Assembly: GCA_002150815.3 (NCBI GenBank)
Contig: NDFF03000015.1
Location: forward strand, 1 to 64,000
Direction of reading: 5' to 3'
Length of the DNA stretch: 64,000 nucleotides
Origin: Grammothele lineata
Lineage: Eukaryota; Basidiomycota; Agaricomycetes; Polyporales; Polyporaceae
The notes under the pieces are model-generated. The model saw only the letters and a list, made by a program, of their open reading frames with translations. It did no database searches and was not told the origin of the DNA. Shown in pieces: positions 535 through 24,016 of this stretch. The position numbers and the translations under genes are program-made. The first letter of the stretch is position 1. Each line of letters starts with the position of its first letter.

Positions 535-542
535 CGAGGGCC
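535..542 (+). repeat. Half of an 8-base target-site duplication
   Basis: CGAGGGCC sits directly against the transposon end at 534. It is the exact reverse complement of the 8 bases next to the other element copy at 23890-23897. A normal insertion has the same 8 bases on both sides of one copy; here they flank opposite ends of two different copies. Confidence 0.75.
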
Positions 543-1024
543 CTACGAAGAGCTTCAGCTCTGCCGACAGCTTCGTAATTGGCAAGTACGACGCGCGCAT
601 GCGCAAACGGCGAGCGGCTCCGTGCCGGGTGCCCTCCGTCCACACACCCTCTGCCCCTGCCCCGAAGCCATCCACTTCACAAATATTTTCATCCCGCCGC
701 ACTCCCTGCCGCCCTCGCTGTTCGTCGCCACTCGCGCCGGTGCAGCGCGACCTCCCCGAGCGCCCTTCGCTGCCCAAAACAAAGAAGCGCGAGCCAGACC
801 TGTACCGCACCGCAATCGAGGCGCGAATGCGTATGTCACCTGTCGGCCGCAACATTTTGCAGATGGGACCGCGCGTGGCGATGTCTATGTCCGTCATAAC
901 GGCGACGGAAGCCCTCGAATGCCTGGTAGCTGCGCACAGCGATGTGGAGTCGTCCGACGCGGGGCTAGGCGCCTCGTGGGTGGACGTGGGCCAGGAGGAT
1001 TGGGAAATGGTGGAATCGACGTGA
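535..1024 (+). pseudogene. 3' half of a gene split by a transposon and inversion
   Basis: From 543 to the TGA at 1022-1024 an open frame codes 160 residues of a basic, Ser/Pro-rich protein. It ends in a segment rich in Met and Arg followed by an acidic tail (SWVDVGQEDWEMVEST). The frame has no start of its own here: upstream it runs into the transposon. Its missing first 42 codons are on the minus strand at 24016-23890. Joining the two through the shared CGAGGGCC gives a continuous 202-codon frame that crosses the join as Gly-Arg-Glu-Gly-Pro-Thr-Lys. I do not recognise the family. A fusion transcript with the transposon is possible but the native promoter is 23 kb away. Confidence 0.7.
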
Positions 1025-2049
1025 CGTCGCACACCAATGGTGCGCAGTCATGCATGGACCTTTCTCCGGGGAACGAGTGTGGGGCTCGTATGACACCGAT
1101 ACTGGGTATTCGGCCAATTGGGTGGCAAAGAGATGGCACCTTGGGCTGGTATGACCTCGAATGATACATCTTCGCGTCTCTTCTTTAGGTTTCATTAAAC
1201 CGATCATTGTTTTCGTTATAATTGGACTCGTGGAGGCATACATGGACTTTGTATAATACGCTCTCCTGAGGTCCTACGTTGTATCAGGCTGTACTCTCTC
1301 ATGTATCCATCATATATCACCGATACATCATCCCATTCATTGTGTCTAATACACTCACTTCGACTGTATGCACTATTTTGGGGGTGCTTACTCTACTACC
1401 ATGGACAGCCTGAGGCCGAGTCCGCTCCTCCAACCTCGTTTGCAGTGATACGGCTCGGCACACGCTTGACAGCAGCTGACGGGCTGCGCGGCGAACGGCG
1501 TTTGGTTGGCATCACGTGAAGAGTTCAACGACGTTTGCAGCGTAAGCGCGTGGAAGAGGCTCTTACTCCTGGCCACTGAGCACGCGAACATCTCGAGGTG
1601 AAAACTTTCGAGTTCTGCTCGCCCCATACGAGATGGTCGAGTCCATGCCGTCTTGAAACCTTGCTGACTGCTCAGGCGCTATGCAGTCCGCGCATAGATT
1701 GGTCGAAGCTTGTGGACCGACAGTTGCTATGTACACTCCGCTGACATGTAGCCTCAGAAATCATATTATGCGGCTTATAGACCAACTCCAGTTTTCCCGA
1801 AGACAGGAAGTGAGGGCTGACCTTTGCTCAGGTGCAGGTTCGACGGATGCTAGACAACGATGGGCGCCGCCTCCTCGATGGCGTCCTGGGCGACGGTACA
1901 GCCGCTCGATCTCCACAGCATTCGATGGAAAACGAAACAAACTCAAGCAAGCCTACAAAATCTCGGTGTCCGAAGCACTCGAACGTCCTTTCAATTACCT
2001 ACAAGCCACCCGCCGTCCCCTATTCCTCGCCGCCTAAAGACGACCTGCC
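1025..2049. other. No gene recognised
   Basis: Downstream of the split gene and upstream of the thaumatin-like gene. Short open frames occur (for example 1681-2037 on the plus strand), but none shows a family motif or fits splicing to a neighbour. The end near 2049 presumably holds the promoter of the next gene. Confidence 0.5.
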
Positions 2050-3370
2050 ATGGTGCCGTTGACTAAAGAAATCGTTATTCTCGCTTCGGCGCTCGCTGTC
2101 GTCGCGAGGACATTCACCATTTATAACCAATGCCCTTATGTCGTGTGGTGAGCGTTTTAGTGGTCCACTTTCATACAGATCTCCATCTAACAGAAATTCA
2201 GGCCAGCCGTAAGGATTTTACCGTATTTCCTCCGCCCCGCTCCGTCACCCCAATTCCTCACGCAGATATTCACCGACCTCACAGTGGGAACAGTAACCCC
2301 TGACCAGCCCACAGGGTATATATTTCTTTGCTTCATGCTATACCTCTGGATACCGTGTCTGGTCCTAACGTAGCTGATATAGATGGGAGCAACATGCTTT
2401 TCAAACCGTCTCTTTCACCGTGCCCAATAACTGGCATTCGGGCCGTTTGTGGGTTGGTGACACAATTTGAATAGTAAGAAGCACGTGCGGAACTGATGAT
2501 CTATCATTATAGTTCCGACGCAACTGCGACTTTAGTAGTGGCACACCGGGGCCAAACTCGTGCCTCACTGGTGGGTGTAACGGTGGGCTTGAATGCTCAT
2601 CAGTGGGCGGGACGGTACGTTGATGGGTTAAGCGCGATTCCCTGAAGCGTAAGTCGCTGATTATCGCGCATTGAGGGAGTCCCACCTGCAACTGTGGCAG
2701 AGTTCAGCCTCAATGGAGCAAACGCGAATGATGCCTACGATGGTCAGCGAGGCTGCCTTGAAGACCCGGGGCATACTGATGATAATACAACTCCTAGTAT
2801 CTCTTGTTGACGGTTTCAACGTACCTATCAGAATTACGCCCAGCGACACAAGGTGTCCGGTCGTAGACTGCCCTGTAGATCTCGCTCCTGATTGTAAGTC
2901 TTCATCGGCGTATGCAGGGCCGCGTTAGAATCTTCCCATTGAATGGTGTTCACAGGTCCTTCCCAGCTGAAAGGCCCATCTGACCCGGGCTCCGGTCTCC
3001 CTATCGGATGCATCAGCGCGTGCAAATCTGAACATTTTGGGGATCCCAGTGAGTTGTACAGTTCTCAACATGTTATTCGATCATGCTTGTTAATATGATA
3101 GTATCGTGCAAGACAACAGTTCTAGTTGCTGCACCGGCTCGTTCAATACACCTACTACTTGTCCGCCTTCCGGAGTACAATTCTACTCCTATTTCAGTAT
3201 GTGCATCATGGGATGTCTCGGCCGGAACTCATTTGATGTCTGTTTATTCTTCCTGCTTCACAGAGACCCAATGTCCGAACGCATACGCGTACGCGTACGA
3301 CGATGGCACTTCGTTGAAAAGTTGCGCTTCCAGCTTTAATGCCGACTATCTGATAACCACTTGTCCTTGA
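2050..3370 (+). CDS. Thaumatin-like secreted protein
   Basis: A cysteine-rich secreted protein of the thaumatin / PR-5 family (glycoside hydrolase 64-like fold); fungal members are extracellular and some bind or cut beta-1,3-glucan. The start at 2050 gives a hydrophobic signal peptide, followed by FTIYNQCPYVVW. Family blocks follow in order: WPA-IFTDL, FTVPNNWHSGRLW, NCDF...PGPNSC...GGCNGGLEC, GVPPATVAEF, DVSLVDGFNVPIRI, CPVVDCPVDLAPDC, PIGCISACKS, CCTGSFNTPTTCPPSG, CPNAYAYAYDD, and the C-terminal NADYLITTCP before TGA at 3368-3370. At least eight short introns are needed. Exon 1 is 2050-2147, exon 2 is only 7 bases (2202-2208), exon 3 is 2266-2315 and exon 4 begins at 2383. All expected cysteine blocks are present, so it should be functional. 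Confidence 0.85.
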
Positions 3371-3873
3371 ACATCGTAAGTCTCGACCGTGGCCTGCCCC
3401 TGCCTTCTCTAGCTCGTTCGTGCACTCATTGAACCTATCAGTACCATCACCTTGAGCCTTGGCCTACGTAGACTCGAAGTTTTTTGTTCTGCTTGCCTCC
3501 TATCGGCTTGTTGCGTTGCGTGCAGATGACCGCGGGGTGCATGCGGCTGGCATACTTCTAGCACTGATCACAAGTATCTCGAGTTGCGCCATCAACTCAT
3601 CAGAGAACCGAGTCCTGCCGCTAGGACGCGCTCTTACTTCCTTTGGATTTTCTTCGTCCACGGGCACAACGAGCTCCTCGATCACTGACTGCGTGCCTGG
3701 CACGAATCGGCGCAAACCACGCGCATCATTCTGGATGGGGCCGCGGGCCGGCTCTGCCACCTCGTGCCACTTCGGCTGGCCACAACGGCTCGTAGTGGCG
3801 GTGATGGCATGGGCCTTTCGTTTCATCCGTCGACCGTCGTCTACGCCCAGCCGGCGACAGTGCTCAATGTTAC

Positions 3874-4170
3874 TTACGAGCAGAACGTGATTGTGTAATC
3901 AGAGTAGAGGTCTAGATCAGCGGGGTGATTAGGTGCATTATCGGTCAAGAGTGAACGTACTGAAGAAATCGTAGTACTGTACGGTGGGCATGTCGCGGGG
4001 ACGTTATGCGAGCCGGTACAGCAGTTCGGGTCGTTTGCTGGTGACTTGGTATCATACTCTGCCAGTCTGGAGAGTAGACGATGTATGTATGTGCTACTAC
4101 TGGTCCCACGGTTGGGCAAAAAGAAATTATTGGCGCCTGATGTCTGATTAGTCGTGCCGCACTGCGCCAC
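3874..4170 (-). pseudogene. Thaumatin-like C-terminal remnant
   Basis: On the minus strand, convergent with the intact thaumatin-like gene, there is a stretch matching only the family's last third: NDPNCCTGSHNVPATCPP (about 4030-3975), then a probable 47-base intron, then LYSDYTITFCS and TAA at 3874-3876. Between the two blocks the usual CPN.Y.YAYDE segment is missing. I could not find the central CPVDL block or the CNGG block upstream to 5640. It is probably a decayed second copy rather than a working gene; a gene with very diverged 5' exons cannot be excluded. Confidence 0.5.
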
Positions 4171-7100
4171 GACGGCCCCGCAAGCGCCTATGCTTCGGCA
4201 GTTGCCTCTCGGCTGTCCGGCTTCACATCACGCCGCGGCCCCCTGCTCGACTTGAACCCGGTTCATGAACATCTGCATAAGCAGCTTTATATCCGCTGCC
4301 AAACAGGATGTATAGCATCTACCCGGTGCACACCGGGAATTTCTGACAACGTCGTTTCTCCGGAGCTACCATCGGCTACTAGAGGATATAAGCATATTGT
4401 GAGTTCTGATGCTGAGTATGCAACGCTCATGACCTTAACGCATCATGGCATTAGCTTCATTGTCGACCTATCCCCTCTAGCCTGATGTTCCTTTCGGAAT
4501 TATCCATTACCACGTGCACCTTTTGGACGATGATGAGGCTCAGCAGCGAGGCCTTCCGAGTCCAGGCTGTCGCGTGCCCGTTTGCCCATTCCCTAACTAC
4601 GTGGCTTGAATGCCAGTTAGTACAGAGGAGCCGAAGAACAAGTCGCGTCTTAAAGGTCGCGTACTACAACGTTGATCGGCTCCTCCAAAACACTTCCTCT
4701 TACAGCCAAGTCCTTCAAGGGCATAATGGGCTGCAGATAATTGCCGAAAGCTTACTACATTCGGTTACGAGACGTACAGGTCTATCCCCAGAAGAGACGC
4801 ACCCGAATGCACAGTCGACCGGTGTCTGTCTCTCAGAGGCTACTTGGACAAGGAACATGTCCTTCACCTTTCAAAAAGGCTAGCGCGAAAGTGCGGTCCG
4901 ATCCGCAGTCCGGAGCCTCCTGATCATCGCGAGCTTAGAGTGTGCCATCAGCCACCTCTTCCCCCCAAGAAATCCGATTTCGGAAGTCGATCGTGTCTCG
5001 TCTTCAATCATCTATCTGGCGTCCCGGGTCTCGCACCATCCGATCGAAGCCCTCCTGCCAGGTCCGAGTGCGTCCGCTGCTTCGGACGTTCGACGCGTTA
5101 TCCGTCTGCTGGATTATTCCTCCGCACCCCAGAAATGCACTGTATTCGAAGAAGTCGCTGTGCCGCTGTGATAGCGTCACCAGATGGCCTCCGGAAGGGC
5201 CGCTTGACGTTTACACCCGCTTCAGCTTCCTGGCCTGATAGATTGGGTGGGAGGACGTCCAGGACGGCCTTCTTGGGTACTTGAACCCTTTGATACCATT
5301 CGATCGGTAAGGAACATGTACCATCGTATTCTGCTGCGAAGGTCAGATCTCCTCACGCTTCCTTGAAGGCCGGACGGAGAGTGAAGGAAATGCTCTAAAC
5401 GACTATTAAGAACCCATGCGAGAGCTTCGAAGAACCCGCCAGTCCATTCGTGGCAGCTGGAAGACAGGCCATGAGGATGACCACACCCAGGACGTGGCGT
5501 CACGAGAGGAGGGTAGCAGGCGGGCCAATACTCCCGACGGGTTCCCCGCATAGGGGAAGTCGTGATAGCCAACACTATGTTGAAGGTACGTCCTAGGCTT
5601 CTGCTCGCTCCGTTGACTATAGCTGTAGGCTCCCACACAGTGGCATGCCACGACCGGGCGTACCTAAGATGGCGAACGAGCGATACGCCGATCGAATACT
5701 CGACGAATGGTAGCCATCGGCGCTCGAAAATTTCTGGGATGGCACGACACGTCGTAGAGAGTACTCACAGCCTTCCTCCCACATGGCTCGTCGTCGTTTT
5801 GTTTTCAGTTCACTAGCGGCGTAGTTCCTTTATGGCGTTGCTTCCAGATCAGCACGTCAATCCTGTCTCTTTGCGTGTAGTTGCGTGCAGTTCTGCAAAC
5901 GGATGCCCCCGCGGTGGTTCGAAATTTCGTGCGGCGCCAGAGTCACGGTAGACGCCTGATGGCTGGGCACTGGTACGTCCTCTTCGGCTACGATTGCATC
6001 TCGACCCACATAAATGATGCCTCATGGACAGTGAGTACCTTCGACATGTACTCTTCGTTGCAAATCGCGGTATATTACGACGTAAGCCATCTCGCACTCT
6101 ATTCGCTCGTAATGCACCCGCACACCTAGCACCTGCCAATCATGAAGCATCGGCGTTCAGTACGAACTTCTAGCTGCGGACAGACCGATCCCTCCTCACA
6201 AGGACGCTGTAGGCTCGTCGCTGTTCTCCAGACAGCCGGACGTCCTGACCACAGATTGTGGTGATTTAAAGCTGGCTACACAGCAGGCGGTAGTTGCGCG
6301 CGTTTCTGCGATATACTGTCCAACAGCGGAGGCCGGCAGACCGCCTCCTCCTAATGCTCAGGCTTGCGTCCCACAGGGTGGCTATAGTTGGGCGACTCGT
6401 TCTCATCTCCGTCCCGCAATTCCGTCTGTCAACCTGCCTGGGTTCGAGCCGCCCCAAGACCCCGAGGGCTGACGCCCCATCTTTCTTCTGCGCGCTCTGC
6501 AAGACCCCACCGGTGGCAGGCGTCGGCACCTGTCAACGCGGACGAACTTGAGCTTGTGTGGTGGGGCAGCTGTACTCTGCGCCTCGCCCCAGCGCCACAC
6601 GGCGCTCATGCGCCACGAAGGCTGCCCTTCAAGTTCGTACGTACCTCTGAACTCTAAGTCCATAGAGATCGAGGCCCAAAAGATACCATCCCGCGATCCC
6701 GACGCCACTCCCGAGGAAAGCGTGGGACCGCGATCTCCGTGCCAATTGGACGCCGCGTGCATGTCCGATTCCACGCGCGCTGAGGCGGCTACCGCCGGTC
6801 GTCCTGGTCCAAAATACCGTCCCCGGTACGTCGTCGATTCGGCGGTTATAGGCGCATTCTGGGGCCCGCAATTACATCAGTGCAGAAGCGGGAGAAGACG
6901 TCATGGCCCTGGCGCGAAGGACCAGGAATCCCAGGGCTGCGAAAAACGCCCAGGCAGCAGGCACGTCCTTGCCGACGTCAAGTTAAACGCAGCGGGCGAT
7001 AACCGACGATGATCTTGGCAGCGGTCCTGCATCATGCTCTGGCCTGCATACGACCGCGCTGCCTTGTCAAAGGAGGCCGAAAGTCCGGACTACGGCTGGC

Positions 7101-7411
7101 CGATAGAGCAAGCGAGATGGCCGCATGTCGAGTACAATCGCTTCCAATCCTTGTAGTATTCAATATAGTACAAAGGACACCTTTTGTGGCGTCCGACGAC
7201 ATACAAATATATGGCCCCGGCTGGATATACGTACAACCACGGACCACTGGGCCGGGCGGGCATAGTGCAAACGAAGTTGGTGCTGTGAGCGGTAGGTATG
7301 CAAGAAGAGGTTGCAAGGACGCCATCAAACCATAGCCTGTAAAGTGAGAAAGTCGACAACCCGTCGCGGGAGTTGTCATTTTATAGCGGTCGCCCTCGCG
7401 ACGCGCCGTTT
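4171..7411. other. 3.2 kb without a recognised gene
   Basis: Many short open frames on both strands, none with family motifs or a convincing exon chain. A minus-strand stretch near 5620-5430 (TFNIV ... YWPA ... TGGFFEA) faintly recalls the N-terminus of thaumatin-like proteins and might be the far end of the relic at 3874-4170, but spacing and cysteines do not fit. It is probably decayed or intergenic sequence. Confidence 0.4.
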
Positions 7412-9091
7412 CTATGCCCTGCGGACGATATCCTCGAGGGGTTGTGCCATTTCCTCGGCATTCCCGATCCACCGGATGATCCCGTCTTTGGGAGTGATGA
7501 TGAAGGCTACAGCGCGAGAAGAACCCGCGAGAAAGGAGGTAACAGGATATCAGTACAGTGTCTCGGCACGGCAGGGTCCGCGCGGCGAGCAAGAAGAGAG
7601 TTTCATTAAGCTCGCGAACGCGGTGCGTGAACGTACTCACCGAGCGGAATGGACAGGTTTTGTGCGGGTAGGAAGATCGCTGTGATAGACAGCGCGAGAT
7701 GCGAGGGTGCGGACGGCACGAAGGAGCGGAAAGGAGCGCGCAAGGGCGTTAGTCATCCGTTGCGTGTGGCCTGACCGCCGTTCGGACTCTGGCAGCTGAC
7801 CCCGGGCCCGCCCGCAAGAGAGACGCGTGCGGAGGACTGCGGGCACGAGGCGCGGGGAAGCTGCCAGGGCCAGGGGGCAATCTAGCGGGACACCACGTAC
7901 CATTGACCGCGACACGGTGGGTATCGATGTATATCGGAAATTCCATATCGTTGCGAGCCGCCACGAAGCCCTTGACGAAGTTGACGTCGATGGCGCCGTT
8001 CGTGAAGATCGTTTCCGAGTTAAACGTGATCACTTTAATCTCCGGTCGCGTCTGGACTATCCTGGTGAGCTCCTCGAAGACAACGATGCATGGCTGAGTG
8101 GCCGATAATCCGGATATGCGACGCGATGGAAAACGGTGGGGAAAGCCGAGGTCGTTAGTCGAAGGTAATTAAGCCGTGTATGTCCCATATCGCACGCACT
8201 CTACACCACCTGCGCGCAGGGAGATCTCGGAGTCAATAATCGTCAGATTGCGCATCGGACCTCCATCGCGCCCGCCCGCACGGAACAGCACGCGAGGCCG
8301 AAAGTGCACACATCGTTCCCCTATGGAACGCCGGTGCACTGTGACCGCGCGAACGCAACGCAATATGATGATAAGGCGCGCGAGTCACCGCGGGTGCCAA
8401 CGGCGCGGCGCTCGATGACGCGAGCTGCGAGGTACCGCTCGTTCCCGGCCGCGGTGCATTTCGGCCATTTCCAGCGCTGTGCGTCATGCCTGCTGGCCCC
8501 GCGTCCTCGAGTGGGGACGTGCGCGGTGGAGCGGTGGAAAGGGGTGATCGACTTACGATGCCCAGAATTCGATGATGAGCACTTTGGCGTCGCGCCAGCC
8601 GTCCATGGAGCCCTGGACGTGCTCGAACGAGCCGCTGTCGAGCCAGCGGAGGTCTACCCTTTTGCCCAACGAGGGGCTCTTCCATCCAGGGCGTAGGAAC
8701 GGCGGCGGGCCTTTCTTGAACTGGGCTTCGAGCGCGTCCCATGACGGCAGATTCGACCGCGCCCAGAAGCGTTGTATAGCGGCCGGATCGTGCGTTGCTT
8801 TGAACCGAGCTGAGTCGCGGACGTCGTTAGAAATCAGTGGCCGCAACAGTGGGCCCGAATGATCGGAGGGCAGAGGGACATATGCCGCTCACCGACAGCG
8901 GCGTTCCAGCGTGCTGACGGAGGAAGATGGCAAGTCAGTGAATATCCATCATGGCTGCACCGGGACGAGCGACTATACTCACGTTGGTCCCACTTGTCTT
9001 CGTACAGTTGTTCGAAGACGGACCATATATTCGTCCGGAAATCTGTCTTCACAGCGAGCTCTCGGGGAGACTCGGGGCGAGCGACAGCCAT
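7412..9091 (-). CDS. Thioredoxin-fold protein (TlpA-like), 239 residues
   Basis: Seven exons restore one frame: 9091-8983, 8913-8893 (21 bases), 8809-8557, 8209-8200 (10 bases), 8093-7901, 7679-7641 and 7506-7412, stop TAG. The protein is a redox-type thioredoxin-like domain: a helical N-terminus (IWSVFEQLYEDKWDQ), then VDLRWL, VLIIEFWAS, the active site W129-C-R-P-C133, VFEEL, VITFNSE, FPIYIDTHRVAVN, NLSIPL with the cis-proline, and IRWIGNAEEM. No signal peptide or membrane segment is seen, so it is probably cytosolic; the substrate is unknown. The W-C-R triplet sits alone in the 10-base exon, between introns of 347 and 106 bases. Without it the frame breaks and the first active-site cysteine is lost. 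All donors are GT and all acceptors AG, and the phases agree at every junction, which is the main support for the model. Confidence 0.85.
8200..8209 (-). other. 10-base microexon coding the thioredoxin active site
   Basis: The minus strand reads CAG, then G TGG TGT AGA, then GTGCGT. The 10 bases complete a Ser codon left open at 8557 and add Trp-Cys-Arg, after which the next exon supplies Pro-Cys in phase. This gives the canonical WCxxC motif of the family exactly where it is expected. Confidence 0.7.
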
Positions 9092-9780
9092 TTCTGTGGG
9101 ATGTTCGGGTAACGGTTTGCCTAGTCAAGCAGTCGAGAGAGACAAACAGGCAGAGAAACCGCCCACTGAGTGCGGAAGACTTGGGTGTTCCTGGGTCCTC
9201 TCGGAGGTAGATATATATCCCAGAGAGGCGCAGCGGAAGCTGTAGCAGTGTCAAGGATGAGAAGCTGTCAGACGGTTCCGAGAGGGAACGCGCGTGCGGG
9301 CTACGCTCATGAAGACTGCGGGAACGCGGAGATGGTGACGGTCGCGTCGAGGAGAGGATAAGTACTGAAAGCGAGGGAAATGGCCGTAAGGGGGGAAATT
9401 GCAAACCGGGCGATGGGGAGCGGCCTGAAGGCCTCGAGGCTGGGCGGGTGCTAGGCGGATGGTGGGGTATCGGACAAGACGAGAAGAGTCGGCAAGCGCA
9501 CGGCGTTGGCAGCGGCGACCGAGAGGCGACGACGCCGACAAGTGGGGACTGGCCAAGGTTTCATTCTTGCCGTACCGAGAGAGCGTGCGGAGTTCGGGTT
9601 CCCCGATCCATCCTCGATCTGCAGACGCACGACAGACGCACGACATGGCCTCTCACGGCGTCTCATGGCCTCCACGGCCCGGCACTTAATCAATCACTCG
9701 CACTATCAGCTTCGCGGTCGAGATCCCTGCCGCGTGGCCGCCCGCGAAACCACCCCTCCCGTGAGACGCAAAAACACCAT
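9092..9780. other. Promoter side of the thioredoxin-fold gene
   Basis: Upstream of the minus-strand gene that starts at 9091, and next to the tRNA. No further gene is recognised; the region is purine-rich on the plus strand near 9360-9500. Confidence 0.4.
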
Positions 9781-9864
9781 TGGACGTTGTGGGGTTCGAA
9801 CCCACGGCCTCATGCAAATTGCATCAAGTGCAAAGCAGGCGCGCTACCACTGTGCCAAACGCCC
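9781..9864 (-). tRNA. tRNA-Ala (UGC) with a short intron
   Basis: Reading the minus strand from 9864, the acceptor GGGCGTT pairs with AACGTCC before discriminator A. The third pair is G-U, the G3-U70 identity signal of alanine tRNA. The D arm contains AGTGGTAGC. The anticodon stem starts CCTGC with loop TT-TGC-A, and the T arm is GTGGG TTCGAAC CCCAC, which also provides the B box. About 12 extra bases after the base 3' of the anticodon fit a normal nuclear tRNA intron. The 3' strand of the anticodon stem (GCATG) leaves one C-T mismatch, so the gene may be slightly degenerate. Confidence 0.8.
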
Positions 9865-10517
9865 TATACGATACATTGCCAGATAGTAAATTGATCGAGT
9901 CAACTACCAGGTGCCGGTAAGTTTGGATGAGTCGTTGGACTCGCATTGCTTCGCGGCCGTCGCTTCACAGGACTTACGTAGCGTTTTGGTACATACCATT
10001 GGTAAGAAGGAAAGACAGCCGATCGTTTTACGAAACCTCAAGACAGATGCCTGTTCGTAGCTCTGTTTCCATTCCGTCTGCTCGCGAACACCGTCGCCAA
10101 CATTGGCATCAACTCATAGACTGGTTGGTTCCCAGACTTCAGTCAAAATACGACGTACTGACCACGTGTACATGTCACGGCTGCAAGGCCTACAGTTGAA
10201 TTTTAGAACATGTATATGGTGCTACTACGGCACGCCCCGACATCGAGTGTTTGATACGTCAATAATCGTGTGCTCATCTCCACCTTCGTACAGGTCAATG
10301 TAAGAAAAATTAGGGATACGCCAGACCCTCGGTGATCAAGACGGAGCTATGATACACTATATTGTCCAAGATGCAACGTCCACAACAGAGAACACTGCCA
10401 ATACACTCACTCATAGCGGCCGTACTGGAATCGGCATATCGAGACTCCGGAAATTCTGGCATGATCCAAACGGATACCAGCCTCATGCCGATGTGATTTT
10501 CGGCAAAGGTCCGGTTT
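9865..10517. other. No gene recognised
   Basis: Between the tRNA and the 3' end of the DUF1295 gene. Only short open frames without motifs; it probably holds the 3' untranslated region of the minus-strand gene. Confidence 0.4.
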
Positions 10518-12171
10518 TCACAGTGAACCCCGCGGAGAAGTGTCGGCCTTCGATCCAATAAACGGCCAGAAGACGGGGACAGTCCTAGATTGAAGCCTTT
10601 GTGAGCAACTCGCAGTTCTGCAAATCTTCTGGTGTCCACAGGGAGCCAACGCGGATGCTGTGGCATCCGTACAGACCGAACTCTCTATGAGGGTCGAGGG
10701 GGCGTGTGAAGGAATAGGGAGCGGGGTAATGAGACTGTGCTTCCAAATGAGGGTTTATGCGCCACCACAGAGAAGGTTCTGCTGTGGGTGCAGCGTGGCC
10801 AATCAAACCCTTGGAGGCCGCCCGGCTTCAGGGTGGCAAACTCCACGGATCCACCCCGGGCAGAGAAGCGAAGCAGCTGTGCTTACCTCTTGTATTCCTG
10901 CCATTTAGGATCGTCGCCGTACTTCTTGTCCCCAGACCGCTTACGGAGTGAGGAAATTCAGCACCGCCGTTAATCAAACTCAAAAGCGTGAGCGCCACGA
11001 TACGTACCTCCAGCGGAGGCACCCCGGAAACACGTGAGAGGAGATACCACGTTAGGAGCGGGCTAGCACCTGCGATCAGCCACGCCACTCTGGGAAACAA
11101 CGGTGTCCGGAGGGCGTTCACGGAAAGCAGCCACAAGCCTGTCCAGAGGCCCACTTCTCCGACGTAACTAACAGGACATCGATCAACTTTAGCCATTCTG
11201 GGGACAATGTTGGATGGCGAAGGCGAAGATACGTACTTTGGGTGCCGACTAATCCCCCACAACCCCTTGGTGATGAACTTCTCGTCATGCTCCTTTTTAT
11301 CCTTCGCGTGGCGCCAGGCGCTCTTCTGACTATCGGCAACTGTCCGAGATGTTGTAAACCGGTTGTGGTAATAGTGAGGAGCCGTGGACGTACCTATCTC
11401 GAACAGCCAAGAACCAGCAAACAAAGCGACCGAAAAATAATCTAAGCGTCCGAGCTTGGGGTGTTTTGCAGGTGGAAGCACATTCGCCTGCATATGGTTC
11501 AAGGAAGAACCAGGGGTTGGGGTGTTGGAAATGCACCTCATTGCGACTCACTCGTGCGACCCTAACTTACCATGTAAACAGGCAACCCTACGACCATTAC
11601 CCATGTGGCTACGCTCACGCCTGTCAATTGGCGCACGCAAAGTAGCGGTCGCGTTGCTGACCTTGCGCCATCCACATCGCAGTGAATTTGCCGGGCTTGT
11701 GCTTGATGTCGTCAAATCGTGAGTCGCCCCCGGCTTTGAGTGCTCTCTATGAACGTCGTTCACACACTGCCGTCATTACCGCGCCATATTGTGTGAATTT
11801 ACCGTGAAGAGGAAGCTGCCAAGCCTGGTAGTCCAGGCAAGGATTGCCGCGTTCAGCAGAATCTGCCTTGGCGCGAAGTGCAATATATTGGGCAATGCTG
11901 CATTGGGAACGCGATCCCAGAATTTGGCCTTGAGGTGGGGATAGTAGAGGGAAACGAGGGTAGTGGAAGCAAAACCCATTGAGCCTCCCAGGTCGTAGCA
12001 AAGTTCGTTTGCCTGGGGAACGAAGATAAGGGCAAGTACTATACGAGACGTATGAAATGGTCAGTATGAGACTCTGAGGGTGCTTATATGCGCAATATGG
12101 ATAAGACCCATACCACCTTGAAGCCCATACGCCGAGACGACAGTGGGCAGGAGTTTGGATAACAAAGCCAT
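10518..12171 (-). CDS. DUF1295 / steroid 5-alpha-reductase-like membrane protein
   Basis: A polytopic membrane protein of the DUF1295 family, related to steroid reductases and isoprenylcysteine methyltransferases; the substrate is unknown. The start at 12171 opens MALLSKLLPTVVSAYGLQ. After one intron, in frame, come VLALIFVPQANELCYDL, GSMGFASTTLVSLYY, FAPRQILLNAAILAW, TRLGSFLF, the hallmark AGGDSRFDDIKHKPGKF, WVMVVGLPVYM, DYFSVALFAGSWLFEI, QKSAWRHAKDKKEHDEKF, GLWGISRHPKYVGEVGLW and SRVSGVPPLE. The cofactor-side motif GLW..SRHP.Y is intact. The tail KKYGDDPKWQEYK joins, across an intron of about 296 bases, to RTVPVFWPFIGSK and TGA at 10518. About nine exons. It is head-to-head with the GFA gene, 329 bases apart. 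Confidence 0.85.
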
Positions 12172-12500
12172 CGACAATATGTTCAGGCTTCACCGCAGAC
12201 GCTCTGAGGGACGTAGGGAAGGGCGTAGCTTGGGGATTCCTGAACGGGTGCAACTCTCGTCGTCCTCGAGAGCTCGCGAGTCGGAGCCTGAGTGTGGCGA
12301 CACGATCACGTGTACTGTTCATGTCATTTGTGACGTCAGAGGGGTCTGCGGTGGCTGGAGCGCTGAAGCACTGATGCTCGCTCTCTTCTTGCTATCGCAA
12401 TCGACAGCTGTGTGGGCACCCTCATCCGCTGCAGGAGTACTGTTACCTTCTAACTACTACAACTCTCTCGCGAACGCTTCACACAGCCCTAGCAGCACTT
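12172..12500. promoter_or_regulatory. Shared divergent promoter region
   Basis: The 329 bases between the start of the minus-strand DUF1295 gene and the start of the plus-strand GFA gene must hold both promoters. I see no unambiguous TATA box. Confidence 0.45.
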
Positions 12501-13876: not shown

Positions 13877-14542
13877 ATGGTAATTCCCCCCGACACAGAG
13901 GTGATCGAGCTTAGCAGCGACAGCGAGCGCGACGACTCTGCCCAGGAAGACGAAGACGTACTGGAGCTTGACGACTTCTCTCGGAATCAGCTGCACGCGG
14001 CAATCGCGTCGGTGCCGGAAGAACGCGTCCGTCAAGCGTTCGCCGCTCTTGTGGACGCCGTGCCAGACATTCCCGAACGCGTTTTCCAAATGCTTGTCGC
14101 GTCGAGACGCGTCGAGCCAAGCCACCCGCAAGGGCCAGACAACCAATCCAGCTCGCCAGGCCCAGTGCAACACGTCGTAATGATCCCCCGCTGGGTGGTC
14201 TGTAGGAACTGCCAGGAAGAGTTTGACGCCGGAGAAGAGAGAGTGGATGGCGAGTGTTTATACCACACGGGTGCGTTCTTGTATGCACATGTAGCTATGC
14301 CTTGGGCAATCCTGGTCTCACAAGCCGTCGCCGTTGTAGGGGAGCTAGAAGTAGACGAAGAGTCCTTCCCAGACTGGGACGAGAATTGCCACGGGCCGAT
14401 GGATACGGAAGAAAACCAACGCCAATGGCCGGACAGTTTCATTTGGACGTGCTGCGACAAACGGGGGACAGCTCCCGGATGCGAAGCGAGTGAGCACGAA
14501 CCCGAGGACAGCCAAGGTCGGAGAAAGAGGGTGAGGTATTGA
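13877..14542 (+). CDS. CHORD-like zinc protein, hypothetical
   Basis: The N-terminal half is acidic and disordered (EVIELSSDSERDDSAQEDEDVLELDD), followed by a short helical stretch. The C-terminal half has an ordered set of Cys and His: VCRNC, C-LYHTG, FPDWDENCHG, FIWTCCDKRG, GC...H. The order C-x2-C, C-x2-H-T-G, W-x-CC, GC-x4-H resembles a CHORD zinc domain, and fungi have many such uncharacterised proteins. A 69-base intron at 14271-14339 removes an inserted hydrophobic stretch and joins YHTG to ELEVDEE. Spliced, the protein has 198 residues; unspliced, the frame also stays open. The function is unknown. Confidence 0.7.
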   Translation: MVIPPDTEVIELSSDSERDDSAQEDEDVLELDDFSRNQLHAAIASVPEERVRQAFAALVDAVPDIPERVFQMLVASRRVEPSHPQGPDNQSSSPGPVQHVVMIPRWVVCRNCQEEFDAGEERVDGECLYHTGAFLYAHVAMPWAILVSQAVAVVGELEVDEESFPDWDENCHGPMDTEENQRQWPDSFIWTCCDKRGTAPGCEASEHEPEDSQGRRKRVRY

Positions 14543-14784
14543 ACGTGATGTACGCTACTGCTGCAGGCCCGTTGGGCCTTCGACGGCCGTTTTGGTACCA
14601 CCCCGATACAACGAGTGGCGCGATTGTTATGTGCATGAAGAATGAATGGATAGCGGGCACATGGGTACAGCTGTACACGCGCAACAGCGGAAGTAAGGAA
14701 CGATGCGCCGTATGATATACACTCTTCCTACACCGTAACACCCACGTACGTCGAGTAGTATAGCAGATACCAAAAGAAAAGACA
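14543..14784. other. Convergent 3' ends
   Basis: The short gap where the plus-strand zinc-protein gene and the minus-strand acetyltransferase gene converge; it probably contains both polyadenylation sites. Confidence 0.4.
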
Positions 14785-17700
14785 TTACATCTCAACGTCA
14801 TCGTCTGGCTCGCCGTCTGCGTCCGCATCCTCGGCATCCGCATCCGCGTTCACAATAGGCCCTCCTCCACCGCCGCCGCCGCCGCCGCCGTCTCCACTCC
14901 ATCCACCGCTGCTGTCAGGGAGTGCAGCGTGCGCGACCTGCCCAGCGACCTGCGCGAGCACGCTTAGCGGAGACAGGTCTGCCTCTGCAACATGCAGGAG
15001 CGGCGACACCTTGCTCCGCACGAGCTCGCTCCCGATCATCGTGTCATCGCTGGGCACGCTGTGCCGGCTGGCTACCGTCGCGCCCGTCGCAGGTGTGTCC
15101 GCGTCCTCGTACTTGCTATCTTCGGCCTCTCCCTCGTGCGCGAACCCGTTCGGCGCAGGCATCCCGCTGTCGTCGTCGTCGTCGTCGTCACTGAGGGCAG
15201 TGTTATGCCCGTTCGGGGCCGGCTCGCCACTACAACCTCCGCGCAACTGCGGCAGCTCCTCGTCCTCTTCCTCTTCCTGGCGGAGCGACTCGAGAGCGGC
15301 CCGGGACATGAACCGGCCGTTCGGCGTCCTTGCGGGTGTCTTCTGAGACAAAGCAGGCGAGGCAACCGTCGAGCTACGATTAGCCGGCCGTGGTCTCTGG
15401 AGCGGGCGCTTGCGCTGAGCCAAGGGCGACCGCGTCGTAACCTCGACCTCGGGCGACGAGTCTACACGTCGCCGCTTACGGGGTGACGCGGAGCGGGGCG
15501 TAGAGGGTTCATGCTTCTGCCCGCGCATAACGGAGACTTGATCGGTACTTGGACGACGAGAACGCAGCTGGCGTGCTGGGCGCTCGAGCTCCATCGCGAG
15601 CTTCGCAGCGAGCGCCGCGTCGGCATCCACAGAATGGGTCGAGGTCGTGTCATCGTCAAGGCGGGAGCGACGCGAATGCATACGCCGCTCCGACCGGGGT
15701 GTGGGCGGAGGGAGCGCGGGTTCCTTCCGTGACGTCTGTGACTGGACGCGCCGTCGCACAGGAGTGGACTCGTTTACGGAGTCGCGCTGGCGGAGCCGCC
15801 GTACCGAAGGAGTGGGAGTAGGGCCATCCTGAACGTGTTGGGTCTTGCTTCGCCTCGAACGTGGCTGCTCAGCGACTTCAATGTTGGGGGACGCCGGGTG
15901 ACTGCCAGCCGTAGATTCTGACGCGGCCGACTCTCGAGGCGCGCTTGCGCTGGCACGAACAATCTCAACGTTGTCATCGTCGAACAACGCAAAGGCGGGT
16001 GATTGCGTCTGCTCGACCAGGGTTCGAGCATGTTCCGGCCCAGGACCGCCGCCCTCAGAGGGCTGAACGTCCGCAGTTGCGCTTCGCGCGGGTTCGCCAT
16101 CCTGCGTGCTAAACGCCGCGACGCCGTCGGACGACTGCGTCTTCATCGCGCGCGACAAGATAAACGGACTCCACTTCAGATTCTCGGGCTTAAGCTTGAG
16201 GTTCCCCTTGGCCTCCCAACGAACGAGGTAGCTCTGGACTTGTTCGGCGTCCCATCGTACTTTGTAGCGTGTGGGAGGGACGAAAGGCCCCTTGACTTTA
16301 TCGTCGTCGTGTGTCTGGGTTCGCTGGAGATGTTTCCTCGCGATACCATTCTTGCGACCTTTAGGAAACTTGATAGTCTGACCGGGAAGAGGTTTCGGCG
16401 CTTGAGCAGCGTCCAAGACGATGATCATGTTAAGTTGCACCAGTGTCGCATGAATATCTTCAATGGTCATAGAGGTGGCTGAGCTAATGTCTGAAGTCAT
16501 ACAGCATGAGTTCCGTTCCATGCGCTAGGGATTCAACAGGCCTACCTTCTAACCGAGGATTAGGAGGAGCAGTGTCTAGGTAACGCATTAAGGACAATGT
16601 CCAGTAGTTCTTGTAACCTAAGGCCCCAAGTGCAGAAAGCGGTTTTTCGGGTGAACCCGCCCGCCTCTCTTTCTTGGATAAAAGATAACCTAAAACAGCC
16701 ATGAGTTCACAGCCTACAAGGACGGTATAACTGGATGAGACTTACTGAAGTCAATAAGTAAACTCCCCCAACCCTGTCTTTGTCGAACGGGCAGCGTCAT
16801 GATACAACTGACGTTGTAGTTCTTCGGACTGAGTTTCTCCTTGCTGAAATACCCGACAAAATGCGCGCCATCTTCGTCCATCTCAGTAATGACGTAGAAT
16901 AGGAAGGGCTCGACGTCGTAGAACAAGGACTTGTGATCGAGGAACATTTTCGATAGTAGGCAGAGATTTTGGCAATATATCTTGTTCTTCCGCCCGTCCA
17001 CCTCGAATATCGACACCCTTCCGTCGCGGTAGATCTCGTCCCCAGGTGGATGACGCACTTTGCATTTGAGCTGTCCAGTGGTGGTCTGAGCATGATGAGC
17101 GACAACCATAACATACATGCAACGCACCTGGTGACGAGAGGCGCTGAAACGGCTCTTCATGTACTTCAAACAGTACTCGCACATCCACAGCCGTCCGTCG
17201 GGGATCGCAGCATATTCTTCCGGAAAAGGTGCGTCGTACCACGTATCGATGTCAAACTCGCCGAAACGGATCTTGCGTATTCGTAGGCCGTTGGGTGGGT
17301 GCATAAGCGTTGGACCAGGAGTTGTTGGAGCGGGGGACGTAGAGGCACTGGGAAAGCGTGGTGTGATGGGAACGGCATGGGAGCGTAGCGGTCGACTGGA
17401 TGGACCAGCGATGGGTGTTTCTGGCGGTTCAGGTGGAGGGCGGGTTGCGAGCCTCTCCTACTCGGCTGATCAGCTGCTGCACCGCGCTGCGTAGAACACG
17501 GAACGCACCTCGGCACTCGTCCGACTCCTCTCAAACCTCTGTACATCATTCTCCTTGATCGTGGTATCGCGAACGTCCCGGTCCTCCACGCTCAGGATGT
17601 CATCAAACAGCCCGCGCTCAGGCTCTTCAGGGGCTTCTTCCCGAGCCTTGCCCTTGCTGCGTGCTGGGACGCGCAGGCGGATAGTGGGTGTTTCGACCTC

Positions 17701-18988
17701 CTGGGGTACCGGCGAGCCGACCCGTATCCGAAGCCGCCTGATAGGACGAACGGGGGAAACAGGGGAGGCCTCCTCTTCTTCTTCTTCTCGTGCAACTTGT
17801 TTCCCTTTCTTGCTTTTGCGATCCCTTGTCCCTCGACGGGGAGTGGGCACGCCAATCACGTCAATTTCGGCTTCAGAGGCGTCGGTGGTGAGGGTGGGGT
17901 CAGTGGGCTCTGGGGCGTCGGAGGAAGGTGGGACATGGCGGGAGGTGGAAGCGACAGACGACTCTCGCAGGGATTCGGGCAGCGGGTAGTCACCGACGCC
18001 TGGGATCTCCTCGGGGAGAACACCATCGTTGGCTGGCTCCGAGCCGATGGGGGGACATGCAGGACACCTCCACTCGCCCTCAGGCGGCTCACGATATGGA
18101 GGCTCGAAGCACGACATGTGCCATCCTACAAACGGTTAGAACGAAGTCGTGTACTACTGCACGCATACATACCTCGATCACAGAAGTCGCACATGAGCAT
18201 CGAGGCCTGGTAGGCGATTCAGTACAGGGTGCAATGAGATTACCGATGAGCCGGATCTTACCTCGTCGCCTTTGCGTCTGCACACGCTGCAGCTCTTGCA
18301 AGTAGCGCATTGCCATTCATAACCTCTGAGCGCGTCGCCCATCTTGTCTAATTGCAAGCAAGAGGGGTGGCCTGGAGGGATCGTGAAGACACGCGAGAAG
18401 GGGCATGGAATAAGTGCGACGCACCACTCCGCCCACAATCCGTACAGCTGACCATGAGCTCCGGCTGCTCCTCTCGGTTTCGCGAGTCATTACCGTGACA
18501 GAAGCCACACTCTTCTTCGCGAACGGGTCGCTTTTTCTTCCTCTTCAATGGCCGAGCGGGCAGGGGCACGGGCTCTTGGACCGGCGGAACGTACACAGGG
18601 GGTGGTTGGGCAAAGGGGTCACCTTGGGGCCCTTGGGGGTACTGCTGGGCGCGTGGAGGAGAGTTGGGACGATAGAGAAGGGGCGGCTGGAGAGACTGGC
18701 GCGAGAAGGAGTGAGATGGTGGGTCCACGCGCAGCGGGTAAAGGATCGCGACGCGACGCGCCGAGCCACTAGAGCGTCGCGCATCGCGCATGACGGTGTG
18801 TGGAGCGAAACAGCACGTACCTCTCTGTTTGAGGGGACGACATCCTCACCCATCAGCGCGGGGTCGAGCGGGAGGTCATTGAGTGCGGGGTCAATCGGAA
18901 TGTCACCATTGCCGCTGAAGGGTGTGCCAGTCTCCCAAGACGGCTCGCGGGTGTCGACACCGCTATTGGGGAACGGCAAGCCGCGCAT
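14785..18988 (-). CDS. MYST histone acetyltransferase with tandem PHD fingers (KAT6/Sas3 type)
   Basis: The catalytic subunit of a NuA3/MOZ-like nuclear complex that acetylates histone H3. The order is: N-terminal disordered stretch, a double PHD finger (ECGFCHG ... [12 protein letters not shown] ... [12 protein letters not shown] ... [14 protein letters not shown] ... WRCPACPP, about 18530-18045), a Ser/Glu-rich linker, then the MYST domain from about 17330. MYST features are the C2HC finger [33 protein letters not shown], the catalytic-region cysteine in NVSCIMTLP, the acetyl-CoA loop RQRQGWG and the catalytic-glutamate segment GSPEKPLS. A long disordered tail holds poly-Asp and poly-Gly runs. 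About ten exons, stop at 14785. The start at 18988 is the first ATG in this frame. The frame stays open to an acceptor at 19218, and an upstream exon starting at 19466 would also join in phase, so the N-terminus may be longer. Confidence 0.88.
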
Positions 18989-19926
18989 GGTGGGCTGCGC
19001 GGTCGGGCGGGAGTTGGAGGGGCAGGTGCGGGCGCGGGGCGGGAGGTGAGTCCGCCGTCGTCGACGGTGCCGGGCTGGAGACGAGTTGTTTGCGCCTTTG
19101 TTTGGCGATGTGGGGTGGAACGGGGACTTTGGCGTAAATTCGCTCTCTGGGTCCTTTGGCGAAATTCGAATGTCCTTCGGGCCGTGCCCGTGCGCGACGA
19201 GCAGACGGAACCGTACACTAATCAGGAGAAAAACGGGCGCATTGAGGCCAGTTGGGGCGGGTTTTCTGGCTGTGCCTCATGAATCGTCCCCCGCCCGGGG
19301 CCGCCCAGTTTCGGGGTCCGGGCGTCCGCCCTTCCACAGGCGCCCAGCAAGCGCCCGTCCCCTCAGCCGCACTCGCAGCTCAACGGGGCCTCTCTCACCA
19401 GCCGGTGCACCTTGACCACCTCTTTCTCCCTGGCAGGCGACGTGCAGCCGCTCCCCGATGTGGCATACACACGCTACGGGTGCATCTGCGCGTCGTACGA
19501 ACGTGTAACTACAGTTATATACGCTCCCTGCATGACTGCACTGGACGACGGCACCTGGGGGTCCGTGCGGCACCACGCTTGCCGATAGGCACTGGCGCCC
19601 GGGGCGGGGTGGAACTGGGAGCGGGTGAGAGGCACAGAACGGCGACACTCGCTCAGACGACGCGGCGGGCGTGGTACGAGGTGTCGGGAAGGCCGTCTGG
19701 GCGAGATGAGGCCGCCAGACCGAGGACGAGGCCGGGCGCGGGGGCGAAAAGGGCGGTTTGCGTAAGAGTGGCTGAAGGGCGTGGCTCTCTCGAAGAACCA
19801 AACAACAAATAAGGATGCCGGGGGCAGCGACACTCTCTCACTCGAAACTGCTCTGCGCTATATCAGTTTGATAGCTCCCTCCTTCCCTCTCTCTCCGACC
19901 ACCATCTCCCCTGCACGTACGCTCCA
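18989..19926. promoter_or_regulatory. Divergent promoter region of acetyltransferase and kinase genes
   Basis: The region between the minus-strand acetyltransferase and the plus-strand kinase. It is GC-rich and may hold a 5' exon of the acetyltransferase (start candidate 19466). A CTATATC element near 19858 lies about 65 bases before the kinase start. Confidence 0.4.
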
Positions 19927-21914
19927 ATGCAGGCCGTCGTGCACTCGATGGCACCCCAAATGCTCCCTCAGTTCTCCCACAACGCCCATCGCCTACCCCC
20001 GGCCAGCAACATCGGCGCCCTCTCCACTCCCTCCGTCACGGCTCGCAAGCGCAAGCGGCAGCAGTATACGGTCACATACAGTGAGGTCCAGGAGGTCGAC
20101 AACCAAGGCCAGCTCCGAGAAGTGATTGTTATCGACGACACTCCCCCGCCCTCGACCGTCTCTCCCGCAACCACCCACACCGCGATGTTTTCCGCCTCCT
20201 ACCAACCCCCGGTCTACTCCGCTCCTATCCGCACACGCGCTAGGGCCGCCGCGGAAGCCCAGGCTCTCTCCGCCAGCACATCCTCGGGAGGGACCATGGC
20301 CGCTCCCCCACCCAAGAAGCGCAAACGGGATCCGGCGGATGACGTTGGCGCCGTCCCCAAGAAGGCGGTGACCAACGGCCAAGTCTCTAATGCTGTCGCC
20401 TCCAAAGCATATGCCGGTGGGAGTGGTGCTGTCGCGGACGACGTATGTTTTCGTCTTCTTCCATTCCCCATATTACTTATCCATTCACGCGGGATCACAG
20501 AAAGGGCAGTCGTCTTGCGACGACAAAGAGGGACACTACATCATTGTCCCAGACGACATGATTTACCGGCGTTGTGAGTCTATATCTCTCTGTTTTGAAT
20601 ATCCCAGTAACATATGCACCTCAAGACCGTACTGTCCGACTACTGGGTCAGGGGACGTTTGGGAAAGTCGTGGAGGCTGTCGACACCGAGACCAACAAGC
20701 GAGTGGCGATCAAGATTATCCGGGCCATCCCTAAATACCGTGACGCAAGCAAGATTGAGGTTCGAGTCCTTCAAAAGTTAAAAGAACGCGACCCTCTCAA
20801 CAGACAGTGCGTGGTGTTTGGGTGGTCTGTGCCTACGATCGTGCTGACGCATCCTCTACCCCCGCTTTTAGTAAATGCATCCACCTGCTCGCATGGTTTG
20901 ACCATCGTAACCATATCTGTCTGGTCTCCGAGCTTCTCGGCATGTGTGTGTACGATTTCCTCAAGGAAAACGATTTCGCTCCCTTCCCTCGTCAGCATAT
21001 CCAGGCCTTTGCAAGACAACTTCTCGGCAGTGTATCATGTATGGGGTCTTATTCTATGGTTAAACGCAAAGCTAACATGTCTGTGGCAGTCCTTCACGAA
21101 CTCCATCTCATCCACACCGACCTGAAGCCGGAAAATATCTTATTGGTTAACAATGATTATCAGATAGTTCAGATTCCTACTTCATCGAAGGTGAGTATCC
21201 ACTATCATGGACGATCTGCAATGGGCTGACATGCTGGATTTTCAGCGCGGTGCGCCAACACGTAGCAAACGGATCCTCCATTCGACAGAGATCCGTCTCA
21301 TCGATTTCGGGTCCGCGACCTTTGAGGAGGAATACCACTCCAGCGTCGTATCGACGCGGCACTACCGAGCACCTGAGATCATCCTTGGTACGTCCTACGT
21401 GCTTATGTCGCCAAATTTTCACTAATCGGATGTGGTGACAGGCCTCGGGTGGTCATACCCGTGCGACGCCTTCTCGCTCGGTTGCATCCTCGTCGAGTTC
21501 TATACCGGTGTCGCGTTATTCCAGACGCACGACAACCTCGAACATCTAGCCATGATGGAGCAAGTCATGGGGAAGATGCCAGAGCGGTTCGCGCGATCAG
21601 GGGCGCGTGCAAAACCCGAGTTCTTCAAAGAGGGTAGCAAACTTGACTGGCCGAAGCCCAAAGCTACTCGGCAGAGCAAGAAGGACGTTCGAGCTTGCCG
21701 AAGTCTCCAGGTACGAGCCGGCCGCTTTGATTGAGTTGAAGTAGTTTGTTAAAATCCAGTACTATAGGAAATAATACCCGCCACGGACCCCATCAACCGG
21801 CATTTCCTCGATCTGGTCAGGAAGTTGCTCACATTCGACCCCGCGCAGCGGATAACGGTCAAGGAGGCTCTCAACCACCCATACTTCTCAATACAAATAC
21901 CTAACGAATACTGA
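19927..21914 (+). CDS. LAMMER (CLK-type) dual-specificity protein kinase
   Basis: A nuclear kinase of the LAMMER/CLK family, whose members phosphorylate SR splicing factors and act in growth and development. The first 200 or so residues are disordered with basic nuclear-localisation-like runs ([17 protein letters not shown]). The kinase domain shows the glycine loop [18 protein letters not shown], the C-helix, [13 protein letters not shown], the catalytic loop [20 protein letters not shown] and the activation segment [13 protein letters not shown]. It carries the family signature [11 protein letters not shown] and ends at [15 protein letters not shown] at 21912-21914. At least seven introns. 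The signature has Gln where most members have Arg. A second in-frame ATG at 19948 is possible. Confidence 0.9.
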
Positions 21915-22716
21915 ACGATATCTCATGCTCGTCTCTCCCAATCTCGGTCCGTCCATGGTGTGGTTTCGGTACGATATGGACAGGCTCATGCTGCCGTTGT
22001 ATACTCTCCCACTCGTCTACATACAGTATTGCTATCGCCGTCGCATGGTCGCTATCCCGTCCGCTACTAGTTGGAGCCTTTCGCCGTTATGTCTCTCGGA
22101 GGTTCCCCCTCATGTATAACACTCAATAGTGCGCAAGCAGTTACTTTCTCTTTCGGCGCTGGTCCTTCTTTTTCCTCTATCGAGCCGCCTCTTTTCATCC
22201 TTCGGCGATGAACCCACACTCCCTCGCCCCTCCCCAAACTCGCCAACTATCCCCTTTGCCGACGTTGACCGCGACACCCATCCGACCGCGCTATTGTCCA
22301 TCTACATCTCCTCTCCTCCGTCCCCGTCTCTCAATGCCCCATCTTGTATCTATCCTAGCTCTCGGGTCTCTTGTTTCGTCTACTAAGCCTATATACATAG
22401 AAGCAACAACGCCGCCCCTCTCGGCGCCCCAAACTGACCGCCGCCGACGCTGCTCCACACGGCTGGCAAGCACACGAACGTCGACGACGGAGGTCTGCAC
22501 GGTGAACACTGCAGCCAGCCTCCAGGGTCGCGCCGATGAACGTGCGCGCGCAAGTCCGCCGCGCAGGCGCTGATCGGCGTATGGACCCATCCGCGTCAGC
22601 TGGCCCGCGCTGGTCCGTGCGCGGAAGACGTGCCCCGCGTGCCCGGCCTGTCTGGATCGATCCGCCGCGACGGTCAGCCGCGCAAGTCCGGATCTGCAGC
22701 GGGCATGCCATATCGC
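21915..22716. other. Kinase 3' region up to transposon junction
   Basis: It holds the kinase 3' untranslated region, then a GC-rich stretch up to the transposon end at 22717. Long open frames occur on the minus strand at 22700-22290, but they are Arg/Ala-rich without motifs. The last 8 bases, CATATCGC at 22709-22716, should be half of a second target-site duplication. Confidence 0.45.
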
Positions 22717-22748
22717 AGGACCCCGGATAATACGGTTATATGCCTGAT
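22717..22748 (+). repeat. Left terminal inverted repeat
   Basis: Begins AGGACCCCGGATAATACGG. It matches the reverse complement of 23858-23889 at 28 of 32 positions; differences are at positions 16, 19, 20 and 21. Confidence 0.85.
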
Positions 22749-22775
22749 TTTTCGGGGCCCTTCGGGCCCCTTTTT

Positions 22776-23852
22776 GGTCCGAATCGTATAGAGGGGTCCG
22801 GACCGCATTTTGGTCCGAATTCTGGGCAGACTTCAAGCAGTAGGCCACCGCCGGTCCGAATTCTGGTCAGGCCTCAAAAATCGCGATTTTTCTTCGCCCA
22901 ACCCCCAAAATCGCTCTGGGGCGCTCTGCAGCACTCCTCAGTAAGTACTGACAAGGTGGGAAAGAAGAGCGCATATGGCAGGGATGATGTATAGAGCATG
23001 TGTAGTCCCCTTGTGGCAAGTTGGCTACGAGAGCTGGTCTATAGACATCATGAAGAGGCTCATGGCCGCGAAACCTATTTTATGGATGCAGAGCTTTTCA
23101 AATACTAAGATTAAAATATCATACGTCACAAGAGCGAAGGTTTATTTGTATGATGCGGAGTATTGAGTCGATGCGCCGTGAGCAGGACGAGATAAGCGTC
23201 AAATGATAAGTATGTCTGCGCGGACCACTCGGTTTCAAGTAGAACGCGACTTGGTTGACCCGAAAGGCCTTCGAGCAGCGCCGTGGCATACGCAGGACAA
23301 CTTGAAGGCGACTTGCTGAGGAACACATTCACAGTATCAGAGAGATTGTGCAGAGCAGCATTGAACATGTAACGCCGATGAAAGGTGAAGATATGCTCAG
23401 GCTTTTGTGCGTAGTAGAACGCGCCGTGCGGACTCGTAGCCTGTTAGTACTGGTCTGGCAAGTATGCTTAGTAGAGCCGCTTACGTCGGAGCGTGAAGTA
23501 ATTATCACGAGAAAAGAACATGGACTAGCCGCGCCCTCATACATGTTCATTGCTCTGGAATATCTGGGTTTGAATATACTGATGAACTTAGATTAGAAAC
23601 AATAGCTGATCTTGTAAAGCCGCTGTACTAGAGCAGTACCCATTTTCGAACTCCGCGCTCACAATAGACGGCCGCTGCAGGCGCCGGCTGCGGGTGGCGC
23701 TGGTCAGTGAAGCTGGTCCGAATCCGGTCAGCCATTGGTGGGCACCTTGTTCTGGTCCGAATTGTTGATCAATCCTGGTCGCGCGAAAGGGCTACCTTTG
23801 GTCCGAAAATCCGTCAGGGCTCCCCTGCGGGGCCCCCCATTCTGGTCCGAAT
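22776..23852 (+). repeat. Subterminal direct repeats GGTCCGAA
   Basis: Copies at 22776, 22812, 22853, 23715, 23754, 23800 and 23844, all in the same orientation and clustered within about 180 bases of each end. Such subterminal motifs are typical transposase-binding sites. Confidence 0.75.
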
Positions 23853-23857
23853 CGCCC

Positions 23858-23889
23858 ATCAGGCATATGGGCGGATTATCCGGGGTCCT
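23858..23889 (-). repeat. Right terminal inverted repeat
   Basis: Ends ATTATCCGGGGTCCT at 23889 and is the inverted partner of 22717-22748. Confidence 0.85.
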
Positions 23890-23897
23890 GGCCCTCG
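23890..23897 (+). repeat. Partner half of the 8-base target-site duplication
   Basis: GGCCCTCG directly follows the transposon end at 23889 and is the exact reverse complement of 535-542. Confidence 0.75.
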
Positions 23898-24016
23898 CGA
23901 CCATAGAGTGGGGTGTAAACGGCGGCCTGCATGTCGGCCAAAGACAGGTAAGAACCTGTACGGCAAAGAGGCGTCCGAGCGGACTTGAGCGGAGGGGTGG
24001 GAGGCGAGAAAGACAT
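23890..24016 (-). pseudogene. 5' half of the transposon-split gene
   Basis: An ATG at 24016 on the minus strand opens 42 codons (Met-Ser-Phe-Ser-Pro-Pro start, ending TPLYGREG) plus one base. It then runs into the transposon end, where the frame stops within a few codons. The remaining 160 codons are at 543-1024 on the plus strand; the join through one copy of the 8-base duplication is in frame with no gap. The 127 and 482 base pieces add to 609, exactly 203 codons with the stop. A TATTATA element on the minus strand at 24189-24195 could be its promoter. No function is recognised. Confidence 0.7.

Follow-up and report, generated by a model that had tools for sequence, protein, structure and literature searches.

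A transposon insertion in a conserved gene and a possible 22-kb inversion between element copies in Grammothele lineata

The locus and its setting

The window, the whole stretch of DNA that we analysed, is 64,000 bp long and corresponds to bases 1-64000 of the 65,125-bp contig C15, so that window base 1 is also base 1 of the contig. It comes from an assembly of 252 contigs and 41.8 Mb. A MYST acetyltransferase, part of a kinase and part of a urease are encoded in it. Opposite the fungal urease gene, at 26689-27035 on the minus strand, the bacterial Rfam family 5_ureB_sRNA gives a match of 72.7 bits, which probably reflects protein-coding similarity rather than an RNA. Rfam also places a tRNA at 9781-9864 on the minus strand (51 bits) that ARAGORN does not call, possibly because of an intron.

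Two copies of a transposon, in opposite orientations, and the two parts of one reading frame make up the region considered here (window coordinates):

1..534, minus strand: left element copy, element positions 534-1, truncated by the start of C15
535..542, plus strand: octamer CGAGGGCC, inner flank of the left copy, within coding sequence; partner at 23890-23897
535..22716, no strand: DNA between the copies, in the opposite direction to that implied by the target duplications and the intact gene
536..1024, plus strand: C-terminal part of the split gene, 162 residues and a stop; finds 27 relatives by itself
22709..22716, plus strand: octamer CATATCGC, left flank of the right copy; partner GCGATATG at C210:66666-66673
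22717..23889, plus strand: right element copy, complete, 1173 bp, with terminal inverted repeats of about 32 bp; its flanking octamers agree at 0 of 8 positions
23890..23897, plus strand: octamer GGCCCTCG, right flank of the right copy; partner at 535-542
23890..24097, minus strand: N-terminal part of the split gene, with ATG at 24016 or, more probably, 24097; matched by 26 of the 27 relatives

Two identical copies and their flanking octamers

The complete right copy carries AGGACCCCGGATAAT at each end. Its bases 22717-23250 and window bases 1-534 are reverse complements with 100% identity. A whole-genome search located the outer half of the left copy at the end of another contig, C210, whose bases 66674-67167 equal element positions 1173-680 (100%) and whose last base is 67167. 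The contigs thus break inside the left copy at depths of 534 bp (C15) and 494 bp (C210), and the 145 bp of its middle (element positions 535-679) were absent from the contigs seen in that search. Because this piece is missing, the link between C210 and C15 rests on the element halves and an octamer rather than on continuous sequence; the two contigs are probably adjacent in the genome. We also considered whether C210 could be an allelic copy of C15 and rejected this, as the element is the only match between them at E 1e-5.

Over the 534 bp in the window and the 494 bp in C210, the left and right copies show zero differences at 1,028 shared sites, which extends the original claim of inverted copies identical over at least 427 bases. 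Other genome matches to the element reach 79-94% identity, with one short match at 68%. This contrast suggests that the two copies were inserted recently or that conversion took place between them.

The octamers next to the element ends are paired across the copies. CGAGGGCC, on the inner side of the left copy, and GGCCCTCG, to the right of the right copy, are exact reverse complements, and direct comparison bore out what had been stated about them. An octamer had also been predicted just outside the left copy, as the partner of the one at 22709-22716. The predicted bases, GCGATATG, do lie at C210:66666-66673, adjoining the outer half of the left copy; the chance of matching one predicted octamer is 1/65,536. 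Both octamer pairs support an exchange of target duplications between the two copies.

Transposition that uses the ends of two different elements is expected to create a new target octamer. We rejected it as an explanation, since the four ends bear just two octamers, each of them twice, a pattern that a simple exchange would fit better.

The split gene

Read from the minus strand, the N-terminal frame runs into a stop codon 14 bases inside the element. When the two parts are joined through one octamer, the result is, as originally proposed, 609 bases of open frame, or 203 codons including the stop.

Used as a query on its own, the C-terminal part (536-1021) had 67 candidates, of which 27 proteins matched at E <= 1. 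The 41-residue N-terminal query (24016-23892, minus strand) matched 26 of these 27 relatives, and in all 26 the match sits immediately before the C-terminal part with zero residues gained or lost. In the relatives the two parts overlap by one residue, which the common octamer encodes in both. As a control, the reversed N-terminal query gave 2 matches at E <= 1. The only relative without an N-terminal match, P0010, is shorter and begins five residues ahead of the junction. P0001, the closest relative, lies on a contig of 1118 bp; it is uninterrupted and shares 95% and 96% identity with the two parts. The best named relative of the split protein has 71% identity, and named relatives come from Dichomitus, Epithele, Trametes, Ganoderma, Fomes and similar genera. 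Dichomitus, Epithele, Trametes, Ganoderma and Fomes are polypores.

Judged by this comparison of protein sequences, the two halves are one ancestral gene. That unrelated open frames and unrelated octamers should have come together by chance is hardly conceivable, given that relatives found with the C-terminal part only have the N-terminal part in the right place in 26 of 27 cases and that the second octamer was predicted before it was found.

The idea of a joined protein in relatives therefore stands, with a change at its N-terminus. In 12 of the 27 relatives the protein starts with MSC..., 21 or 22 residues farther towards the N-terminus, and in the window MSCAV... is encoded in frame at 24097, 27 residues upstream of 24016. 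These starts suggest that the true start is probably the ATG at 24097 rather than 24016, and that the undivided gene probably encoded 229 residues (690 bases) instead of the 202 first proposed.

Pfam gave nothing above the cut-off for 443-1024 or for three relatives, and NCBIfam gave nothing above it for 536-1021. One relative, P0012 from Ganoderma boninense, is labelled 'Urease' by its source; the N-terminal half in the window lies near the urease gene, and the label has perhaps been shifted between neighbouring genes. At the DNA level, the N-terminal part matched only itself in the whole genome.

Within the element, an ATG at 443 opens a 193-residue frame (443-1024, plus strand) that begins 31 codons before 536; the element could in this way supply a new start to the C-terminal half. 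At the other junction, from C210 to 22708, the longest open frame has 191 codons.

Whichever order the segment has, 1173 bp and a duplicated octamer interrupt the gene. The insertion breaks it regardless of whether the flip described below is real, and the gene is presumably inactive.

The element family

We searched the whole genome for family ends, allowing up to 2 mismatches to those of the element, with the reversed pattern as a control. This gave 25 ends, compared with 3 for the control. Eight pairs among the 25 mark complete elements, and 7 of these 8 are flanked by exact 8-bp target duplications; the copy in the window is the lone exception. The seven are:

C114: GTTGAGAG, exact 8 bp
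C36: GCATTGGT, exact 8 bp
C4: GGTCCTCC, exact 8 bp
C38: CCGCTCCC, exact 8 bp
C42: CGTCAGAC, exact 8 bp
C232: ATGTTTGG, exact 8 bp
C50: GGAACTTG, exact 8 bp, using the outer end at 257823

For C50, we rejected a reading of 255306-256131 as a second mismatched element: the octamers at that inner pair of ends do not match, but the outer end at 257823 bears the matching octamer.

Since seven of the eight complete members have exact duplications, the family makes 8-bp duplications, and the copies at the window locus bear each other's. From these flanks, the locus is best read as two ordinary insertions, one of them inside the gene, with the flanks subsequently exchanged.

The remaining 9 of the 25 ends are unpaired (the left end of C15, C210, C172, C219, C4:84061, C13, C76, C102 and C143). 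Two of them, C76:257367 and C102:55744, carry the octamers CCTTACAT and ATGTAAGG, which are mutual reverse complements, and the two pieces are complementary halves of the C232 element with a 4-bp overlap where they meet. They seem to be one insertion split across two contigs, by a translocation or by a misjoin at nested repeats. A further member with 88% identity, C219:2514-3195, ends at position 677, where an LTR element starts. This odd repeat junction lies near the contig start and enters the interior of the LTR element rather than its end.

The combination of 8-bp target duplications and terminal inverted repeats that characterizes KDZ elements (Zisupton, Dileera) and hAT elements is present in 7 of the 8 complete members. 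The genome has at least 71 KDZ and at least 10 hAT-dimer matches, and among the matches listed, inspection by eye placed no KDZ or hAT transposase within 10 kb of the 25 family ends. We therefore assign the element to no superfamily.

Inversion or assembly flip

The arrangement can be accounted for by two insertions of the 1.17-kb transposon, in opposite orientation and about 22 kb apart, one of which would have split the conserved gene. The prior order would then have been C210, element, 22716 down to 535, element, 23890. In such an order both copies have matching duplications, and one copy alone separates the two halves of the gene. It would take one crossover between the copies, which are inverted, to produce the assembled order, and the flip of the DNA between them would leave the gene halves 23 kb apart.

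Several results favour such an inversion: the outer octamer GCGATATG was predicted and then found, both octamer pairs are exchanged in a family in which seven of eight complete members have matching duplications, and the gene parts are contiguous in 26 of 27 relatives. Relatives without a joined protein, or a different octamer outside the left copy, had been named as observations that would speak against the original prediction; the relatives have the joined protein and the octamer is the expected one.

Both contigs break within the left copy, C15 after 534 bp and C210 after 494 bp, which counts against a real inversion. The breaks also fit a quite plausible alternative, to which we give somewhat less than even odds: the flanks of the identical copies were mispaired during assembly, the 22-kb segment is reversed on paper only, and the gene halves really lie about 1.2 kb apart. 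The copies are identical, and C15 stops inside another exact repeat at its right end as well. There, C15:64466-65125 is a 660-bp piece of a second transposon, whose inverted repeats measure about 309 bp; the piece is identical to part of a complete 1.73-kb element at C9:10991-12721. The breaks at both ends of C15 indicate that some identical repeats of about this size were left unspanned in the assembly. The C9 copy itself argues in the other direction, since it is closed and has the same bases, GATTAGCAC, on either side; a closed copy such as the one at the window locus can therefore be right, with the caveat that random pairing would be right half the time.

LTR elements give a similarly mixed picture. 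Copies that are 97-98% alike are closed within contigs, and of five checked for 5-bp duplications, three have exact or near-exact ones, which speaks against an assembly flip:

C98: exact
C209: exact
C2: 4 of 5 bases
C164: mismatched
C152: mismatched

The two discordant pairs of flanks, together with the C76/C102 split, suggest that repeat junctions may be misjoined in this assembly and are in line with an assembly flip. Inspected by eye, 10 of the 66 reverse-transcriptase matches are no more than 5 kb from the start of a contig, so retroelements break contigs too.

It is also conceivable, though highly improbable, that the culture used for sequencing contained both orders, in two nuclei or in a mixed mycelium, and that the assembler took one path while the contigs broke at the other. 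One closed and one broken copy, as seen here, would be expected from a mixed graph, but an unspanned repeat gives an identical picture. We likewise regard as unlikely a reversible 22-kb switch that is still flipping, with nuclei or sectors carrying both orders of a segment that contains the acetyltransferase and kinase genes.

Because the copies are identical, no chimeric tract could reveal a crossover. We lean slightly towards a real inversion by crossover between the copies, with a probability of roughly one half, and present it as a leaning rather than a finding. On this reading, the flip would have arisen by homologous recombination in the DNA rather than in the assembler. What was originally put forward as a transposon-mediated inversion is supported for the single gene, the inverted copies and the exchanged duplications; the presumed recombination step may instead be an assembly flip, which had been named from the outset as the main alternative.

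If the flip is real, the locus would be a base-exact and apparently recent polypore case in which two insertions were followed by an inversion that parted a conserved coding sequence. If it arose in the assembly, it illustrates how a misjoin in a draft genome can be recognised without reads, from target duplications that have changed places. In both cases, the assembly has a broken copy of a gene that is kept intact in relatives.

Comparison with known systems

The mechanism of such an inversion is already known from Galileo in Drosophila. In the description of inversion 2z3 of Drosophila buzzatii, opposite copies of one transposon lie at the breakpoints with exchanged target duplications, and the non-inverted chromosome has one copy of each target (PMC2775673). 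The locus studied here likewise has copies in opposite orientation at both breakpoints and exchanged target duplications. An uninterrupted target is seen here as well, for the gene site and at the protein level, in 26 of 27 relatives. As 2z3 is described, its duplications are 7 bp long and its copies chimeric, whereas ours are 8 bp long and the copies are without difference over 1,028 bases. The Galileo inversion was proven by cytology and cloning (PMC2775673), while the order here is read from the assembly. Unlike 2z3, our case concerns a 22-kb segment with one breakpoint within a coding sequence.

A basidiomycete host is shared with the mushroom Marasmius oreades, for which one report attributes deletions to recombination between transposon copies and describes one inversion at hAT copies (PMC9674265). 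As given in that report, the hAT copies lie head to tail, with one inverted and the middle deleted; the element described here is not assigned to hAT.

Target duplications of 8 bp are reported for Zisupton and Dileera (KDZ) and for most hAT elements (PMC12730594). The element in the window differs from KDZ and hAT elements in that, among the matches listed, no transposase was found in or near the family ends, and resembles Zisupton, Dileera and hAT in its 8-bp target duplications and terminal inverted repeats.
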